A DNA stretch of 21,652 nt from a virus: IMG/VR virus record IMGVR_UViG_3300042987_002475, positions 1 to 21,652 of that record; one strand, 5' to 3'. A program made the position numbers and the translations under genes. Below, piece by piece: positions 2,937 to 15,747 of the stretch; position 1 is the first letter of the stretch, and the number at the start of each line of letters is the position of its first letter. The notes below the pieces were generated by a model. It made no database searches. It saw nothing but the letters and a program-made list of their open reading frames with translations, and had not been told where the DNA came from.

Positions 2937-5406
2937 TCTGGACTGGGACTCGATTCTGTCTTTGGAAGACACGGACACGAACGGGGATCACCCGAGGTCC
3001 GTTGATTGGAATTCGATCCTGTCGCAGCCGGATGAACCAGCGCCGGCACCAGAGCCTACTGGTTCGTCGTCCTGGTCCATGAAGGACGTCGCCCCGCTGG
3101 CTGCCGGCACGGTGGCTGCCCTGGCGGCAGCGCCGGTTGTCGGCACGACGGTGGGCGGCATGGCAGCAACCGGGGCGCTGGCCGGCATGGCCGGCAAGGC
3201 TGCCCGCAACTGGTACAACGACAAACCTTTCACCGAGGGGCTTTTCGACCCGGCTGACATGGCCTTCGATGCTGCCACGGGCTTGATCCCGATGGGCGTC
3301 TCGAGCGGCGTGGCCAACCTGATCGGCAAGGGCATCGTCAAGCCTGCGCTCGTCGGCGCGGCGACTGGCGCCGGACTGAGTGGCGGCATCGGTGCCGTCA
3401 GAAGGTACGCGCACGGGCAGGAACCCCTGTCGGGCATTGGCACCGACTTAACCATCGGTGCCGGGTTTGGCGGGCTGCAGGGCGGCATTGAGGGTTACGT
3501 GCGCAGCGAGGCCCCAAGCAGCGGGCCGGCACCTCGAGCGAGCTCGGGGCCGGTGCCCAGCGAGCCGGTGTCGACAGGCTGGGGCGAGCTGCCGATGAAG
3601 GGCGACACGGCCCTGTCCTACGACCAGGTGATCGTCGGCCCGCAGAAAGTGGCCGTCGCGCCTCCGGGCACGAATGCCTTTGCAAAGATCAGCAACGCCG
3701 TCGGCAGCCTGCGGGACCAGACGATTGGCAGGCTGTTCGGAGGCGACCTCGCCCCTGGCGTGTCGACTGCCGTGCGTAGCCCGCACGATATCCTGCTCGA
3801 CCGGGGAGGCGAGGCCGGCCGCGCTGCCGTCGAAGCCGCGCGCACACGGGCCACCGGGCACGACATGGCCTTGGCCGCCACGGACAACATGCTCGGGTCC
3901 GTGACGTCCGGGCTGGCCGAACCACAGCAGCGGAACGTCTACGCCCTCCTGCGTGCGATCCGCGACGGAAGTCCAGACGCCGACGCGATCTATGCCCGGA
4001 TGTCTCCGTCTGAGCGACTCGCGGCGCTCAAGTACAACGAGGAATACCTGCAGCCGTCCTTGCAGTTGCAGCAGAAGGCCGGGGTGCATGTCCGCAACGG
4101 GTCGGAAATTGCCGAGGCCGGTGGCAACTGGGTGACTCGGCCGACATTCACGAAGCCCGACCCGGCGCTGCATGCTTTCCCCGATTACGTGACGACCGGG
4201 CGCAATCCACTGCAGGGTGCTCAGGATATCGTCTCGGTCGAGTCCACTACCGGGCGGCCGCCAGCCGGCCGCGGCGTGCAGCGGATCGAGGACGTGATCC
4301 AGTATGGCCGCCTGCACAACCGCAAGATCGCCCAGGACATTGCCAACGCAGAGGCTTGGGGCGGCGAGCGCGTGCCCATGACGATCGGCGACCAAGAAGT
4401 GTTCGTCGGCAAGCGAGCTGCCGAACTGATCGACCAGCTGCCAGACGACGACACCCGAGAAGTATTTAAGCAGGTCCTCGTGGACCACTATGCTCCGACC
4501 CCGCAGGGCACGACCGATTCCGGCCTGCGCGGTGCATTGCGGATGGCCAAGCAGCGGTCCACCGAGGCCAACATGGGCATGCAGGGCATGCGCCAGCTCG
4601 AGGGACGGACCAACGGCTATGTCCTGCTCGGTGGGGCCAAAACCCGCGAGGGGTTGGCCATGATGAAGGACCCCCGGGCACAGGAGATCTTCGCGCAGGG
4701 CTCGACGACGCCTGGCCTCTCGGGCGAGCTTGAGCGCGCCGGCGTCGACCCGGGCAACCTGTCGATGCAGATGACCCAAGCGGTGGAGTCGACCAACGCC
4801 AGCAAGTACTCGGCGGGTGTCATCCCGCACATGCGTGACCTGAGCCAGCGGATTGCCGGTAAGCTTGAGGCCGGCGAGCCCCTGACGGCGCGGGACGTGT
4901 TTGAGGCGAACGAGATCGGTTTCACGCCCGAGGAACTGGCATCGGCTCGCGGGTCGTTCACCACCGACCAGCTCGTGCGCGGGGCAACGAACTTCGCGCA
5001 GATCACCCAAGGCGTGGCGTCGCGCGGGTCCATGCCCGGGCTGATCCAAGGGGCCGGCCCGGTGCCGAGCCTGCCGCTGCCGGTCGTAAACAAAGGCGGG
5101 GCTGCGCTGCTGTCGAAGTTCCAGCAGGCCGACATGGCCCGCAAGCATATCTGGGAGCTCTTGGCTTCCGACGACGCTTCCCTGCGGCAACTGGGGCGTG
5201 AGCGCGCCCTCCGCCTTGGAGTGCAGGATGCATGGAAGAAGGCAGTCAGGGGCGGCGAGCGCCTGATGTCTGGCCAAGCCCTGTTCGGCGACGACAAGAA
5301 AGACAACTTCAGTTCTAAGGTCGTTCCCTACCTTGCGCCAAGCACGGCACCGTTCATGCCGTTCGTGTCCAGAGTTATCGGCTCGGCCGTATCGGCTGGA
5401 AGATGA
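2926..5406 (+). CDS. Large virion protein, probable ejection/internal virion protein
   Basis: This 826-residue product starts at GTG 2926, behind a good GGAGGA site at 2917-2922, and overlaps the previous gene by 11 nt. The N-terminus carries a short motif twice, LDWDSILS (about residues 5-12) and VDWNSILS (26-33), then a Pro/Glu linker. Residues ~50-180 are Ala/Gly-rich with several possible membrane segments. The rest (200-826) is a mixed helical protein with no motif I recognise. Size, position after the transglycosylase protein and the hydrophobic N-third fit a DNA-ejection or internal virion protein. A large polyvalent virion protein is the alternative. No catalytic signature is seen. 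Confidence 0.75.
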   Translation: MPGNLDWDSILSLEDTDTNGDHPRSVDWNSILSQPDEPAPAPEPTGSSSWSMKDVAPLAAGTVAALAAAPVVGTTVGGMAATGALAGMAGKAARNWYNDKPFTEGLFDPADMAFDAATGLIPMGVSSGVANLIGKGIVKPALVGAATGAGLSGGIGAVRRYAHGQEPLSGIGTDLTIGAGFGGLQGGIEGYVRSEAPSSGPAPRASSGPVPSEPVSTGWGELPMKGDTALSYDQVIVGPQKVAVAPPGTNAFAKISNAVGSLRDQTIGRLFGGDLAPGVSTAVRSPHDILLDRGGEAGRAAVEAARTRATGHDMALAATDNMLGSVTSGLAEPQQRNVYALLRAIRDGSPDADAIYARMSPSERLAALKYNEEYLQPSLQLQQKAGVHVRNGSEIAEAGGNWVTRPTFTKPDPALHAFPDYVTTGRNPLQGAQDIVSVESTTGRPPAGRGVQRIEDVIQYGRLHNRKIAQDIANAEAWGGERVPMTIGDQEVFVGKRAAELIDQLPDDDTREVFKQVLVDHYAPTPQGTTDSGLRGALRMAKQRSTEANMGMQGMRQLEGRTNGYVLLGGAKTREGLAMMKDPRAQEIFAQGSTTPGLSGELERAGVDPGNLSMQMTQAVESTNASKYSAGVIPHMRDLSQRIAGKLEAGEPLTARDVFEANEIGFTPEELASARGSFTTDQLVRGATNFAQITQGVASRGSMPGLIQGAGPVPSLPLPVVNKGGAALLSKFQQADMARKHIWELLASDDASLRQLGRERALRLGVQDAWKKAVRGGERLMSGQALFGDDKKDNFSSKVVPYLAPSTAPFMPFVSRVIGSAVSAGR

Positions 5407-5819
5407 TCAACAGCCGCCGCCTGGACGACCTGCTGCCGGTGGTGCAGCGCAAGGCCGAGCGGATGATCGCTGCCGCCCGGGCCGAGGACATCGACCTGCT
5501 GGTGACCAGCACCTACCGCGACTGCGCGAGCCAGAACGCGCTGTATGCCATCGGGCGCACCAAGCCGGGCAAGGTGGTCACTAACGCCAAGTGCGGGCAG
5601 TCGTGGCACCAGTACCGCGTGGCGTTCGATGTCGTGCCCATCGAAGGCGGCAAGGCGATTTGGAACAACACAGCCCTGTGGAAGCGCGTGGGTGCGCTGG
5701 GCAAGCAGTTCGGGCTCGAGTGGGCCGGGGACTGGAAGACCTTCAAGGAGTACCCGCACTTCCAGTACACCGGCGGGCTCACGCGCAAGCAGCTCGCGGC
5801 AGGAGAAATGCCGAAGTGA
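5403..5819 (+). CDS. Endolysin, M15 (VanY/T5-lysin-like) zinc peptidase
   Basis: The 138-residue protein has the zinc-ligand pattern of M15 D-Ala-D-Ala carboxypeptidases and L-alanyl-D-glutamate endopeptidases: SWHQYRVAFD supplies His69 and Asp76, and EYPHFQ supplies His119. An early STYRD motif (36-40) and EWAGDW (106-111) complete the active-site region. Length matches single-domain phage lysins of this family. There is no signal peptide, so it would need a holin to reach the murein; two small membrane proteins follow immediately. The start ATG 5403 overlaps the previous stop as ATGA. The enzyme would cut peptide stems of peptidoglycan at lysis. Exact bond specificity cannot be read from sequence. 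Confidence 0.9.
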   Translation: MINSRRLDDLLPVVQRKAERMIAAARAEDIDLLVTSTYRDCASQNALYAIGRTKPGKVVTNAKCGQSWHQYRVAFDVVPIEGGKAIWNNTALWKRVGALGKQFGLEWAGDWKTFKEYPHFQYTGGLTRKQLAAGEMPK

Positions 5820-8652: not shown

Positions 8653-9363
8653 TTAGTCCTCCATGAATAAATCGTCGTTGGATATCTCGAACCATTCACC
8701 GCCGACATGGCGGTCTGCGAAGTAGCGGTGCCACTCGGCTTCTTCGTCTCCGTCGATGACGCACAGCAATTCCAGCCGATGTGGGTTGGCAGTTTGAAGT
8801 GAGCGCATTCGGCTTTCCACGTCGGTGGATCGACCGATCTTGACTTTGTCGCCGGCCCGGACGAAGTACGTCTGCACCTTGGGGCCGGATGCGGCCTGCA
8901 TGTCGGCATCGCTAGGGCGGCGCGCGCGCTTCCCCAGTAGTCTAATTGCGTAGTCTAGGCCGCTCCACCGACAAGCAAACGTCTCGTTAACCGAGAACCA
9001 TGAATCATTACCGCCCTGACCGTGATGCTCGCCAAGGCAAGAACACCCGCAATCGACGCCAGTCGCTTCTTGGCATGCCGGGGCGCACTTCTCGGCTTCA
9101 CGGTAGGACTGGATGACGTAACACTGGCCGTGGGTAGACACGGCTTTTCGCGTCAGTCGTGTCAACCAAGCCCGTGGCGTTTCCCATCGCCGTTGGTCCT
9201 GGTTCCAATTTGGTCGGTGGTTAGACAGTCGAAGCCAATCTTTGTTGCCCTGATTGTAGGGCAACCTGACCCACAGATCGCCGCGAGGCGGAACGATGAT
9301 CGCAGGAATGACGTTGTTGTACCAAGCATCCCTGATCTCTCGCGAAGCAACAGCAAGGTTCAT
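8653..9363 (-). CDS. GIY-YIG (T5orf172/MUG113-like) nuclease-domain protein with Cys-rich N-domain
   Basis: The C-terminal ~70 residues of this 236-residue product match the MUG113/T5orf172 branch of GIY-YIG proteins. TYFVRAG is at 165-171, KIGRS at 175-179, Arg185, SLQTANPHRLELL at 188-200, and a late EWHRYF and GGEWFEI. The N-terminal half has a dense Cys/His cluster, C93, C97, C105, C107, C109, H113 and H114, likely a metal-binding module. Such proteins are probably DNA-cutting or DNA-binding mobile or defence elements. The gene is less GC-rich than its neighbours, which suggests recent transfer. It starts at ATG 9363 with an ATGA overlap. Enzymatic activity is not proven by sequence. Confidence 0.75.
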   Translation of the reverse strand: MNLAVASREIRDAWYNNVIPAIIVPPRGDLWVRLPYNQGNKDWLRLSNHRPNWNQDQRRWETPRAWLTRLTRKAVSTHGQCYVIQSYREAEKCAPACQEATGVDCGCSCLGEHHGQGGNDSWFSVNETFACRWSGLDYAIRLLGKRARRPSDADMQAASGPKVQTYFVRAGDKVKIGRSTDVESRMRSLQTANPHRLELLCVIDGDEEAEWHRYFADRHVGGEWFEISNDDLFMED

Positions 9364-11104: not shown

Positions 11105-11427
11105 GGCGCACACCGCGCTCGGATCAGCGCCGCCGCTTCCGCCCCGGTCGCAGCCTGCTCGGCCAGCAGGGCGCATGCCTCGCGCTCGTCCCTCATCGCC
11201 TTTAATGGCGACCGCGGGCGGCAGGCATGGCAGTAGCGGACCTTGCCGCGAAGCAACTCAAGGCTGCGCACCGTGCGGGTCTTGCCGCAATCACAGTCGC
11301 AACTCCAAATGATTTTTCTATTGGCGCTCCGCATGGGGGCTCTAGCCGTCAAAGTGCCAAACCGCTGCCCCGTGATGTCACGAATGACCGACGTCCTGTC
11401 GCCGATGCGCATCTTGGTCAGCGTCAC
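11101..11427 (-). CDS. Zinc-ribbon DNA-binding protein (AP2/HNH-associated type N-domain)
   Basis: GTG 11427 overlaps the previous stop as GTGA and gives 108 residues. The N-terminal half reads DITGQRFGTLTARAP ... WSCDCDCGKTRTVRSLELL ... YCHAC. This is the small zinc-ribbon module often found at the N-terminus of phage HNH or AP2-type proteins, here without any endonuclease domain. The C-terminal half is an Ala/Glu/Arg helix. It probably binds DNA. It may be a domesticated remnant of a homing-type gene or a free-standing regulator. Confidence 0.65.
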   Translation of the reverse strand: MTLTKMRIGDRTSVIRDITGQRFGTLTARAPMRSANRKIIWSCDCDCGKTRTVRSLELLRGKVRYCHACRPRSPLKAMRDEREACALLAEQAATGAEAAALIRARCAP

Positions 11428-11645
11428 GCATCCTCCAACTGAAACACCTCGTCCACCGGACGCCCGAGCGCCTTGGCGATGCGCAGCATGACCCAGCCGG
11501 TCGGCTCGATCTCGCGGTTCTTGACGCGATTGAGGTGCCCCTGTTGAAATCCGTGTCGCCGCGCAAACTCGCACTCGCTGATCCCAAGCTCGAGCAGGAT
11601 CTGGTAGATCCGGTTGCGGATCCGCTTGCCGTGGTAAGCCCTCAT
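11424..11645 (-). CDS. Cro/C1-type helix-turn-helix protein
   Basis: The 73-residue product has a single HTH of the lambda-repressor class: CEFARRHGFQQGHLNRVKNR is the turn-recognition region, followed by PTGWVMLRIAKALGRPVDEVF. It starts at ATG 11645 with an ATGA overlap. No dimerisation or cleavage domain follows, so it resembles Cro or a small antitoxin-like regulator more than a CI repressor. It is embedded deep in the leftward operon, not beside the divergent control region, so it would be made only when that operon is on. The target is unknown. Confidence 0.8.
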   Translation of the reverse strand: MRAYHGKRIRNRIYQILLELGISECEFARRHGFQQGHLNRVKNREIEPTGWVMLRIAKALGRPVDEVFQLEDA

Positions 11646-13080: not shown

Positions 13081-13257
13081 TCACTTGAGAAGTGCGGTCA
13101 GCACCAAGAGCGCGAGCGAGAACCCGGCAAACGCTGCGCCCATTACGTCGAACACGTCGTACTTCGGGGTCGGGGCAGGCCGGTGCACAGGCACCCACCA
13201 GCCGTCGACCTGAATGAACTGCACCACCGACTGCCGGCGGGGCCGACGCAGCGTCAC
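13081..13257 (-). CDS. Small C-terminally anchored membrane protein
   Basis: GTG 13257 overlaps the previous stop as GTGA and gives 58 residues. The N-terminus is basic (TLRRPRRQS), the middle has DGWWVPVHRPAPTPKYD, and the last ~19 residues form one hydrophobic helix (AAFAGFSLALLVLTALL). It is probably a tail-anchored inner-membrane protein expressed early from the leftward promoter. Function is not recognised. Confidence 0.55.
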   Translation of the reverse strand: MTLRRPRRQSVVQFIQVDGWWVPVHRPAPTPKYDVFDVMGAAFAGFSLALLVLTALLK

Positions 13258-13484
13258 GACGCCACCCGCTCGGAGTACTCGTCGAAGCTCTCCTGCTCCT
13301 CGTCGACGATGCCGGAGGGCAGGTCGTCCATGCCGAGCGTGCCCAGCATCTCGGCCAGCATCTGGTCGGTCGTGGTCAGCAGCTTCTTGGCATCGGTCGA
13401 GATGTACTTCCGCTCGCCCAGGCGCGCCGTCATGTCCGTCAGCGCCAAGGCCCACCGCACGATCCGCTTCGTTGCCTCGTTCAT
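13254..13484 (-). CDS. Hypothetical 76-residue protein, first gene of the leftward operon
   Basis: ATG 13484 follows a GGGAGG site. The product is helical with an acidic C-terminal tail (DDLPSGIVDEEQESFDEYSE). As the promoter-proximal gene of the leftward operon it would be among the first phage proteins made after derepression. Acidic small early proteins often bind or inhibit host enzymes, but nothing here specifies a target. It is coupled to the small membrane protein by a GTGA overlap. Confidence 0.6.
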   Translation of the reverse strand: MNEATKRIVRWALALTDMTARLGERKYISTDAKKLLTTTDQMLAEMLGTLGMDDLPSGIVDEEQESFDEYSERVAS

Positions 13485-13526
13485 CCTCTTGCCTCCCTGC
13501 CGCCCGCTATAGGGTCGGCGGGAATC

Positions 13527-13556
13527 CCTTTACGACGTAAGGCTAAACGGTGTCAA
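13527..13556 (-). promoter_or_regulatory. Candidate leftward promoter
   Basis: On the minus strand a perfect -35 box TTGACA (13556-13551) is followed after 18 nt by TAAAGG (13532-13527), a weak -10. It lies about 40 nt before the first leftward gene start at 13484. The -35 box is the end of the 19-bp element at 13551-13569. The same arrangement, with TAGAGC as the -10, occurs at the rightward promoter, which supports both. The poor -10 match suggests either an activator or a weak promoter. Confidence 0.45.
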
Positions 13557-13569
13557 GGGAAACGGGCAT
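13551..13569 (+). repeat. Mirror-image 19-bp control element, left copy
   Basis: TGTCAAGGGAAACGGGCAT on the plus strand matches the minus-strand copy at 13848-13830 at 17 of 19 positions. It ends in the -35 box of the leftward promoter. It is probably an operator or an extended promoter element bound by the regulator encoded between the two copies. Confidence 0.7.
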
Positions 13570-13599
13570 AAAAAAACGCCCCCGGGAACCCGAGGGCGT
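13570..13599 (-). terminator. Intrinsic terminator of the ribbon-helix-helix regulator gene
   Basis: The stem is 13576-13586 with 13589-13599 (11 bp, one mismatch, ACGCCC-CGGG type, 2-nt loop). On the minus strand it is followed directly by a run of seven T (complement of the A-run at 13570-13576). It sits about 25 nt beyond the stop of the regulator at 13623 and would prevent that transcript from entering the leftward operon. Confidence 0.8.
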
Positions 13600-13622
13600 C
13601 GAAAAGGACAGCGGCTGTCAGG

Positions 13623-13817
13623 TCAAGCCGCGGCTGCGCGCTTGCTCTTGGGCGCCGGCAGTTTGGACGCCAGGAAGAACTTGACGGCTAGGCGAACGAC
13701 CTCGGAGATCTCGCGGTCTTCGCGCTCGGCCATTTCGCGTACTTTGGCGTCGGCCTCGGGAGGCAAGCGCACGTAGATGGGCTGGCCCAGGTTGGCTTTG
13801 GGTCTTGGCATGTTCAT
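13623..13817 (-). CDS. Arc/CopG-type ribbon-helix-helix regulator, candidate immunity repressor
   Basis: The 64-residue product has the ribbon-helix-helix layout: QPIYVRLPPEADAKVREMAE (strand and first helix) then EISEVVRLAVKFFLA (second helix), with a basic tail KSKRAAAA. Such proteins dimerise and bind short repeated operators. The start is ATG 13817, behind GGAGGG; ATG 13811 is also possible. The gene is flanked by two inverted 19-bp elements and ended by its own terminator, and it separates the leftward operon from the integrase operon. Position suggests it represses both outward promoters. There is no CI-type repressor nearby, so this may be the lysogeny switch; Arc of phage P22 is a precedent for such a protein in an immunity region. 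Confidence 0.78.
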   Translation of the reverse strand: MNMPRPKANLGQPIYVRLPPEADAKVREMAEREDREISEVVRLAVKFFLASKLPAPKSKRAAAA

Positions 13818-13829
13818 GGCCCTCCGCTG

Positions 13830-13848
13830 ATACCCGTTTCTCTTGACA
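13830..13848 (-). repeat. Mirror-image 19-bp control element, right copy
   Basis: The minus strand carries TGTCAAGAGAAACGGGTAT, 17 of 19 identical to the left copy at 13551-13569 and in the opposite orientation. Read rightward it ends in the TTGACA of the integrase-side promoter. Confidence 0.7.
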
Positions 13849-13855
13849 GCGTCAA
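13843..13855. promoter_or_regulatory. 13-bp dyad TTGAC-AGC-GTCAA, candidate operator
   Basis: TTGACAGCGTCAA is a perfect 5-bp inverted repeat with a 3-nt centre. It contains the -35 boxes of two divergent promoters at once (TTGACA rightward, TTGACG leftward). A dimer bound here would switch both. The left 19-bp element lacks this second arm. Confidence 0.5.
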
Positions 13856-13872
13856 TGACTTGCGGCTAGAGC
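13843..13872 (+). promoter_or_regulatory. Candidate rightward (integrase operon) promoter
   Basis: TTGACA at 13843-13848 is followed after 18 nt by TAGAGC at 13867-13872, the same spacing and similar -10 as the leftward promoter. The predicted start of transcription falls close to ATG 13879, so the integrase message could be leaderless if this -10 is right. Confidence 0.4.
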
Positions 13873-13878
13873 GTGTGC

Positions 13879-14865
13879 ATGGGCACTCGCCGCGTTGCGT
13901 CGGGCAGGGAAGAGTCGGTACTTGACCGGCCACGTTTCACCCCCGACCGCATGCAGCAGATGACCCTGTTCGAGGAGGCGCGCCCTGCGACCTTCGGCGC
14001 CTACGCGCTCGCGTGGCACTCGAGGTATTGCTCGCCGCCTTGGGTGACGGCCTACACGTCGAAGGTGCGCCTGGGCGTGCTGCGCGCGCAGGTGCTGCCG
14101 GCGCTCGGGCACCTGCGGATCGAGGACGTGACCGTCGCCGAGCTCGAGCGCGTCCAGCGCGACATGATGCAGCGCATGAAGCCTGCGTCTGTCAGCCACA
14201 CCTTCCGCTCGGCCATCGGGCCCGTGCTGAAGCAGGCCGTCGTGGACGGGCTCATCCCGGCGCACCCCATGCGGGCGCTGCGCTGGCCGCGGGTCGATCC
14301 GCCCAAGCCTGACCCGTACACCGACGCCGAGGTGGACCTGCTGCTCGAATGGTTCCGGCGGCACGCGCCGCAGTTCGAGGTGGCCGTGGCCTTGGTCATG
14401 CTGGCCGGCTTGCGCCCAAGCGAGGCTTGCGGGCTCAAGTGGGGCGACATCGACAAGAACAGCGTCCTGATCGAGCGGGCAGTCGTGGACGGGCAGGTGA
14501 CCACCACGAAGACCAAGCGCAGCGTGCGCAAGATCAGCGTCAGCAAGCGCCTTGGCGCCATCCTGCGCCGCCGGCGTGGGCAGGCAGACGAGTGGGTCTG
14601 CCTGCACCGTGGCCGGCTGGTCAGGACGCAGGCGCTCGGCTGCTACTGGATGCGCCGAGCCTGCCAGGACGTCGGCGTGCGGCACCGGGGGCTCTACGCG
14701 GGCCGCCGGCACGCCATTTCGGCTGCGATCTCCGACGGCGCCGAGATCGGGCACGTCGCGGCCTACTGCGGCACCTCGATCACGAGGATCGAGCGGCACT
14801 ACTACCGCTACTTGGGGGCCCTCAGCGACCCCCGGGAGGCTGCGAAGAGGAAGCATTCGGCATAG
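13879..14865 (+). CDS. int: Tyrosine-type site-specific integrase
   Basis: The 328-residue product (ATG 13879; GTG 13873 in frame upstream) has an N-terminal SAM-like core-binding domain (about 37-130) and a C-terminal catalytic domain. Visible catalytic elements are LAGLRPSEACGLKW (Arg179), TKTKRSVRK (Lys211/213), AGRRHAIS (Arg277), YCGTS (about 296-300) and the nucleophile region ERHYYRY (Tyr308 or 309). The usual HxxR His is Ala here, and the second His/Trp position is Thr, both tolerated variations in phage integrases. There is no clear ribosome site before ATG 13879; ATG 13951 would lose part of the N-terminus. It would insert the phage genome at a host att site. No excisionase is recognised, though several small genes could serve. 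Confidence 0.92.
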   Translation: MGTRRVASGREESVLDRPRFTPDRMQQMTLFEEARPATFGAYALAWHSRYCSPPWVTAYTSKVRLGVLRAQVLPALGHLRIEDVTVAELERVQRDMMQRMKPASVSHTFRSAIGPVLKQAVVDGLIPAHPMRALRWPRVDPPKPDPYTDAEVDLLLEWFRRHAPQFEVAVALVMLAGLRPSEACGLKWGDIDKNSVLIERAVVDGQVTTTKTKRSVRKISVSKRLGAILRRRRGQADEWVCLHRGRLVRTQALGCYWMRRACQDVGVRHRGLYAGRRHAISAAISDGAEIGHVAAYCGTSITRIERHYYRYLGALSDPREAAKRKHSA

Positions 14866-14958: not shown

Positions 14959-15747
14959 ATGGGGAGCAAGTCGAGGTGGTGGATCCCGCTGCGGTTCGTG
15001 CAGCTGCACGCGGACCCGGGGTTTAGGCGGCTAGACGACGGCGGCCGCTGGAAGGTCGTCGAGGCGCTGTCGGACGCTTGGTTCCTCGGCAGCGTGGAGG
15101 TCCGGCCCGAGAACGTCAGCGACGCCGTGTGGGACGTCGTCCTGCGTTTGTGGCCCGAGTACGCCGCCGACCTGCAGAAGGGCGCCGAGTTGGCCAAGCG
15201 GCGCCAGAAGGCTGCTCAAAGCCGATGGCATGCAAGTGCATTGCAAGTGCATAGCAAAACGGATGCAAACGCGATGCAAACCGGATGCAAACCGGATGCC
15301 AATAATCAACAATCAACAACCAACAACACCGGAAGCAGACGTGGTACCACCAGAGAGACGTCCGTAGTCCCGGTTGCGGTAGAGCACCAGCGAACGTCTT
15401 CCGCGCCGCATTCGCGTCGCGAGCGAGAATCGACCTGGCTGACCCCGTTCGGCGAGGCATGGGAGCGGGCGACGGACGGGCAGTTCGCGTACTCGCGCTC
15501 GGCGAAGCCGCTCAAGCGCCTCGTCGAGCGACACGGGGCCGAGGCGGTGTTCGGCGCCTGGTGCGCGTACCTGCGCGAGACCGAGACCACGTACCTCTCG
15601 GTCGAGCGGTTTGCGGGCACCTACGGCCACTGGGCGGGCACGGTGCCCGAGGCGGTCGCTCGAGGTCACGACGCCAACCGGGCGGCCGTCGAGCGGGTGA
15701 AGCTCAAGATCGCGGCACGCCAGGCAGCGGCCGGGGGTGCAGCGTGA
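14959..15747 (+). CDS. Replication initiator-like protein containing origin iterons
   Basis: The 262-residue product begins MGSKSRWWIPLRFVQLHADP after a G-rich ribosome site. The N-domain (1-95) resembles the winged-helix region of phage replisome organisers. A low-complexity linker (about 92-150, rich in Gln, Asn, Thr and Ser) is encoded by tandem 11-bp DNA repeats and an A-rich stretch. A helical C-domain (about 155-262) follows. This is the layout of lambda O, in which the origin lies inside the initiator gene. It overlaps the helicase-loader-like gene by GTGA, as O and P are adjacent in lambda. Assignment rests on layout and DNA repeats more than on sequence motifs. Confidence 0.7.
   Translation: MGSKSRWWIPLRFVQLHADPGFRRLDDGGRWKVVEALSDAWFLGSVEVRPENVSDAVWDVVLRLWPEYAADLQKGAELAKRRQKAAQSRWHASALQVHSKTDANAMQTGCKPDANNQQSTTNNTGSRRGTTRETSVVPVAVEHQRTSSAPHSRRERESTWLTPFGEAWERATDGQFAYSRSAKPLKRLVERHGAEAVFGAWCAYLRETETTYLSVERFAGTYGHWAGTVPEAVARGHDANRAAVERVKLKIAARQAAAGGAA
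15229..15330. other. Candidate replication origin: 11-bp iterons plus A-rich tract
   Basis: Units start every 11 bp at 15229, 15240, 15251, 15262, 15273, 15284 and (partial) 15295. They read CATGCAAGTGC, ATTGCAAGTGC, ATAGCAAAACG, GATGCAAACGC, GATGCAAACCG, GATGCAAACCG, GATGCC. The core is ATGCAA. Immediately after comes a CAA-rich stretch (15301-15330) poor in GC against a very GC-rich background, suitable for strand opening. An 11-bp period is about one helical turn, so bound initiators would line up on one face. Because 11 is not a multiple of 3, the repeats are maintained at the DNA level rather than for the protein. Confidence 0.75.

Follow-up and report, generated by a model that had tools for sequence, protein, structure and literature searches.

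Can a single small ribbon-helix-helix (RHH) protein, encoded between two mirrored DNA elements, control both early arms of a phage? The question arises from a 21,652-base virus record (hereafter the window), in which two operons diverge and the only gene between them is a leftward gene for a 64-residue RHH protein. An earlier note on this DNA had read the segment as a compact lysogeny switch, with one regulator controlling both arms symmetrically and without a CI-type repressor. The leftward genes, from 13484 downward, include a Cas4-like nuclease, a RusA-like resolvase, small genes and a single-strand-binding-like protein of unknown family; a protein with a T5orf172/MUG113 (GIY-YIG-type) domain (8653-9363, minus strand) is also found in this operon. 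The rightward genes, from 13879, encode an integrase, a 262-aa protein, the terminase and onward. The genes and elements considered here are as follows.

13254-13484, minus strand: 76-aa gene of unknown function that opens the leftward operon
13551-13569, plus strand: left element, putative operator OL; together with 13547-13550 it matches the right element, inverted, over 23 bp
13575-13600, minus strand: intrinsic terminator of the RHH gene, with equivalents in L048, L047 and L086 (loci listed below)
13623-13817, minus strand: RHH (Arc/CopG-type) regulator gene, 64 aa from the first ATG
13830-13848, minus strand: right element, putative operator OR, extended to 13852
13879-14865, plus strand: tyrosine integrase, first gene of the rightward operon
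14959-15747, plus strand: 262-aa gene, second in the rightward operon, possibly replication

The 19-bp element TGTCAAG-R-GAAACGGG-Y-AT had been reported at 13551-13569 (+) and 13848-13830 (-), and both the positions and the agreement between the copies (17 of 19 bases) were right. That the mirrored copies bracket an RHH gene with its own terminator was likewise borne out in the window, where the terminator is present at 13600-13575 and its T-run abuts the left element. The inverted match widens to 23 nt with 87% identity (13547-13569 / 13830-13852), and outside TTGACA the two elements agree at 11 of 13 bases. A search of the window with up to 3 mismatches returned 2 matches compared with 0.03 expected, and none of 100 shuffles contained 2; at up to 5 mismatches there were still only 2 matches. 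The two intergenic regions that flank the RHH gene matched each other better than did 3000 of 3000 dinucleotide-shuffled pairs. The elements occurred nowhere else in the records examined. An exact-pattern scan of viral_contigs with CCCGTTTCYCTTGACA gave 44 single matches, all in unrelated contigs, which by our estimate is about chance level for a collection that large.

As the earlier note had described, each element reads outward straight into TTGACA, followed after 18 nt by TAGAGC on the right or TAAAGG on the left. Two features had escaped that note: a third promoter-like sequence, belonging to the RHH gene, and the near-missing leader of the integrase. The predicted promoters are arranged as follows.

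13527-13556, minus strand: predicted leftward promoter, TTGACA 13556-13551, 18 nt, TAAAGG 13532-13527
13843-13872, plus strand: predicted rightward promoter, TTGACA 13843-13848, 18 nt, TAGAGC 13867-13872
13827-13855, minus strand: predicted RHH-gene promoter, TTGACG 13855-13850, 17 nt, TATCAG 13832-13827
13843-13855, no strand: palindrome TTGAC-AGC-GTCAA (TTGACAGCGTCAA), the overlap of the rightward and RHH -35 boxes

The spacer and -10 of the RHH promoter fall mostly within the right element, and 9 nt lie between TATCAG and the first RHH ATG. The second ATG (62 aa) is favoured by a Shine-Dalgarno-like GGAGGG, whose position before that codon suggests that longer RHH transcripts may exist too. 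On the other side, TAGAGC is followed by 6 nt to the integrase ATG (13879), a leaderless geometry.

The RHH assignment was examined by profile and structure comparison. The window protein scored 25.4 bits against Pfam RHH_1, above the cut-off of 20.5, and matched a PHROG labelled Arc-like repressor at 2.7e-6; the L086 protein also exceeded the RHH_1 cut-off, and RHH types B (that of L048) and D gave weak matches only, to RHH_1/RHH_5/Arc. The AlphaFold monomer model contains two helices (20-33, 37-52) with no strand assigned, and the best Foldseek matches of the AlphaFold models were Arc, CopG and CdbA, all weak (E at least 0.04). A profile built from the five RHH proteins matched CopG-family and Arc chains in the PDB, the best at 0.0017, and the five align over the strand and two helices at low identity. 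The strand reads IYVRLP in the window and RFVQFP in both L047 and L048, which have a common operator core; it reads VFVRLT in L086 and IYVKFP in L059, both loci with TTGACAGGATCA. If the strand works as it does in Arc and CopG, its alternating residues would make the base contacts. The RHH operon contains no toxin gene, the RHH gene standing alone between the promoter region and its own terminator. With the window protein as query, nothing was found in viral_contigs and only matches with E>0.1 in phage genomes.

Five loci with a common layout were found, the window and the four below, and no others.

L047, IMG/VR 3300016643_000198: integrase 95% identical to that of the window
L048, in a MAG of an Actinomycetota bacterium: integrase 92% identical to that of the window
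L086, in record G614 (IMG/VR 3300032282_003758): integrase 38% identical to that of the window
L059, IMG/VR 3300007734_000415: 262-aa homologue after the RHH gene, with no integrase between

The RHH gene has the same orientation in all five loci, and the 262-aa gene is conserved in all five. G614 (~40.1-40.2 kb) carries 123-bp terminal repeats and is therefore probably complete; in this whole record TTGACAGGATCA occurs exactly twice at up to 1 mismatch, mirrored around the RHH gene. In L059 the right promoter carries TTGACAGGATCA, the left has only a directly oriented 11-bp near-copy, and the shuffle test revealed no significant inverted element pair there. The regulator layout of L059 (3327-3602) lacks an adjacent integrase, and the 262-aa gene follows the rightward promoter with a normal leader. 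In L047 three copies are present; its inverted match alone was not significant (207 of 3000 shuffles were as good). Its rightward promoter is tandemly duplicated together with the operator (3032-3090 and 3095-3153, 63-bp period), which gives two right-side operators. Matching mirrored sites are thus clear in the window, L048 and L086, present as three copies in L047 and weak in L059. Among extra host genomes (297 relatives of the MAG, 395 of its class and 396 of its phylum), only the MAG itself matched; in the terminase relatives L057, L058, L061 and L062 the sequence does not cover the switch. Neither the 1.7-kb window region, as DNA, nor the 262-aa protein had a match among isolated phages.

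The promoter arrangement was then compared across the loci. A strict sigma-70 scan accepted no promoter in any of the five, so our promoter calls rest on conserved geometry; both outward -10 hexamers of the window are weak, with 3 of 6 bases of the E. coli consensus. The pattern TTGNNN-17-TA lies on the minus strand 6-9 nt before the first RHH ATG in 5/5 loci and arose in 0.04-0.12% of shuffles per locus, figures that are descriptive, the pattern having been spotted in the window before counting and the five loci being related. In all five, this promoter-like sequence stands back-to-back with the rightward one, and the layout of the palindromic -35 overlap is kept in 4/4 relatives, with different letters. 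In each of the four integrase-bearing loci, exactly 6 nt separate the end of a TTG...17/18...TA pattern from the integrase ATG (seen in 0.1-0.4% of shuffles per locus), and this ATG lacks a clear Shine-Dalgarno sequence. A -10-like TANNGC stands exactly 6 nt 5' of the integrase ATG in each (window 13867-13881, L048 2590, L047 3135, L086 1501). A transcript from such a promoter would start at or next to the ATG, and the integrase mRNA therefore appears to be leaderless. Leaderless mRNAs are unusually prevalent in mycobacteria (PMC7148126), and the geometry fits both the terminase matches to actinophages and the presence of L048 in an actinobacterial MAG.

The comparison of the window with L048 revealed what distinguishes the switch from its surroundings. 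The two are 93-95% identical over the leftward genes, 92% over most of the integrase and 95% over the 262-aa gene, and identity falls sharply over ~480 bp (13472-13950). Inside this island the left promoter and element agree at 30%, the RHH gene at 52% and the right region at 44%. L048 carries a different mirrored pair there, CTTGAACTGCTCAAGGGAT / CTTGTATTGTTCAAGGGAT, each member present once. Its RHH protein shares 77% of residues with the L047 protein and about a third with the window protein, whereas its 76-aa neighbour is 93% identical to that of the window and 39% to that of L047. The operator core CTTG-N7-CAAG is common to L048 and L047, in three copies in the latter. The regulator and elements of L048 are thus L047-like and its flanks window-like, which indicates that the regulator and both sites exchange or diverge as a unit. 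Read from these sequences, element type tracks RHH type, not the backbone, and this lends support to the earlier proposal that one small regulator serves both outward promoters. No relative was found that keeps the gene and has simply lost the elements; the exact 19-mer is lost, and in its place all relatives except L059 carry a different matching pair or triplet at the same places. What the DNA shows directly is that the elements are paired and unique, that the layout is conserved, and that regulator and elements change together.

From these observations we infer binding, repression, autoregulation and prophage silence or immunity, and propose a one-protein immunity (early-control) region at 13472-13950. 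In it, the RHH protein would bind both mirrored elements, either as a single dimer or as a pair of dimers. At the left element it would block the promoter of the leftward recombination and DNA-metabolism operon; at the right element it would block the rightward operon, that is, integrase, further early genes, and then terminase and structural genes. There it would also limit its own synthesis, its own promoter overlapping the site back-to-back, and the integrase transcript would begin at or next to its ATG. The prophage would thereby be kept silent and immune. Binding of the RHH protein to both elements is very probable on the sequence evidence. The full one-protein immunity reading, lysogenic role included, is likely, and maintenance of lysogeny by the RHH protein is itself probable. 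The earlier idea of symmetric control stood in part: both sites lie at outward promoters, but the symmetry would not be strict, given that the regulator's own predicted promoter overlaps the right site as well. The label lysogeny, drawn from the adjacent integrase and the lambda-like layout, is not secure, since L059 has the switch without an integrase beside it, and early/late lytic control may be the role of the switch instead.

The earlier statement that the switch works without a CI-type repressor is also not secure for the window, because the window contains the following gene.

11427-11645, minus strand: small XRE/Cro-CI-type HTH protein, 73 aa, possible second regulator (HTH_3 22.0 bits, cut-off 23)

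This gene lies far down the leftward operon and is 88% identical in L048; no copy was found in either G001 or G614. HTH_3 matches were absent from G614 and from all other records searched, and ten early-region proteins of G614 showed no other HTH family either.

The main alternative to the immunity reading gives the RHH protein an Arc- or Cro-like part in the lytic cycle, in which it damps both early arms and itself after infection while lysogeny is maintained by something else, for example the XRE protein. L059 would suit it, keeping the RHH switch without an integrase and opening its right arm with a rep-like (262-aa) gene; the XRE-type gene does lie within the window's leftward operon, and Arc of P22 is itself an RHH protein. 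Yet the complete relative G614 lacks an HTH_3 protein and, in ten of its early-region genes, any other HTH family, the XRE gene would be read from an arm that the switch controls and is thus poorly placed as a lysogenic repressor, and exchange of regulator with operator is typical of immunity regions. We regard this alternative as unlikely.

The elements themselves might have another function. Inverted repeats of ~20 bp that bracket a gene adjoining a tyrosine recombinase could be recombination or accessory sites of the integrase (for inversion of the RHH segment, or as arm-type or excisionase sites), with the RHH protein as excisionase. However, the integrases of the window, L047 and L048 are 92-95% identical while their repeats are wholly different, which speaks against the integrase-site and inversion reading. 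The constant orientation of the RHH gene (5/5 loci), the related motif that L059 keeps beside its RHH gene with no adjacent integrase, and the overlap of the elements with -35 boxes in the integrase-bearing loci speak against it as well, and we rejected it as extremely improbable. The elements could instead be no more than parts of a promoter (a -35 box with an UP-like element) or the binding site of a host factor, since TTGACA is the -35 consensus and every copy sits at a promoter-like sequence. Against this, the match of 11/13 bases in the window extends beyond TTGACA, and a host-factor site should not vary with the RHH gene. The sequence differs between close relatives with near-identical flanks and tracks RHH type. 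The pure-promoter reading was rejected as very unlikely. The preferred reading remains that of RHH operators in an immunity region.

As in the lambda layout pL-cI-pRM/pR, the putative repressor gene of this proposed immunity region separates two predicted early promoters that face outward, and the sequence shows a matching putative operator at each. The promoter-like sequence ahead of the RHH gene, if it works as one, would add the lambda feature of a repressor gene read leftward back-to-back with the rightward promoter. Related phages here differ in repressor and operators together, as do lambda and 434 (PMC6550527); homologous phages whose regulators recognise different operators, lambda and 434 among them, are heteroimmune (PMC6550527). 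Unlike lambda, the regulator is an RHH protein rather than an HTH CI with a cleavage domain, there is one site per side rather than three, and no cro-like gene adjoins, the first right-arm gene being the apparently leaderless integrase. A test for CI, Cro and tripartite operators was negative for each, so the switch, although it would work like a lambda immunity region, is not a member of that family.

P22 immI has overlapping divergent promoters under a repressor. There, two RHH genes (mnt and arc) control an antirepressor at a secondary locus, whereas here one RHH gene has sites at both main early arms; no ant-like gene was recognised beside the RHH gene in the five loci, its neighbours being the 76-aa gene and the integrase or 262-aa gene. 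The two systems are alike in having RHH repressors in a temperate phage, and since P22 uses Mnt and Arc to maintain its lysogenic state (PMC10516654), RHH proteins can serve lysogeny. The mycobacteriophage L5 type is likewise found in phages of Actinobacteria, with repressor and sites that diverge together between relatives (PMC6550527); it differs in repressor family and in having 20-30 operators/stoperators per genome, compared with two in the complete G614 and two in the window record. In the open-access literature we found no single-RHH lambda-like immunity region. More tentatively, these loci may belong to a phage family, probably infecting uncultured Actinobacteria, whose entire immunity region consists of one RHH protein of ~65 residues and a single mirrored operator on each arm. 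CI, Cro and any cleavable repressor would be absent, and evolution would proceed by exchange of a ~480-bp cassette of regulator and operators.

If the immunity reading is true, lambda-like immunity regions would hardly come smaller than this one, with its single small RHH protein and its pair of short sites. RHH proteins read DNA through a few strand residues, so that the co-variation of regulator and operator can be tested residue by residue. The four regulator/operator types on related backbones, one pair of them on 92-95% identical flanks, form a natural series for specificity change, and the divergence of immunity systems into distinct specificities has been described as poorly understood (PMC6550527).

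Judged against the 40-kb relative G614, about half of the phage genome is missing from the window record. Close to the end of the virion gene block, the window encodes a VanY/M15-type peptidase (5403-5819) and a large transglycosylase (SLT)-domain protein (957-2936), probably lysis and internal virion enzymes.
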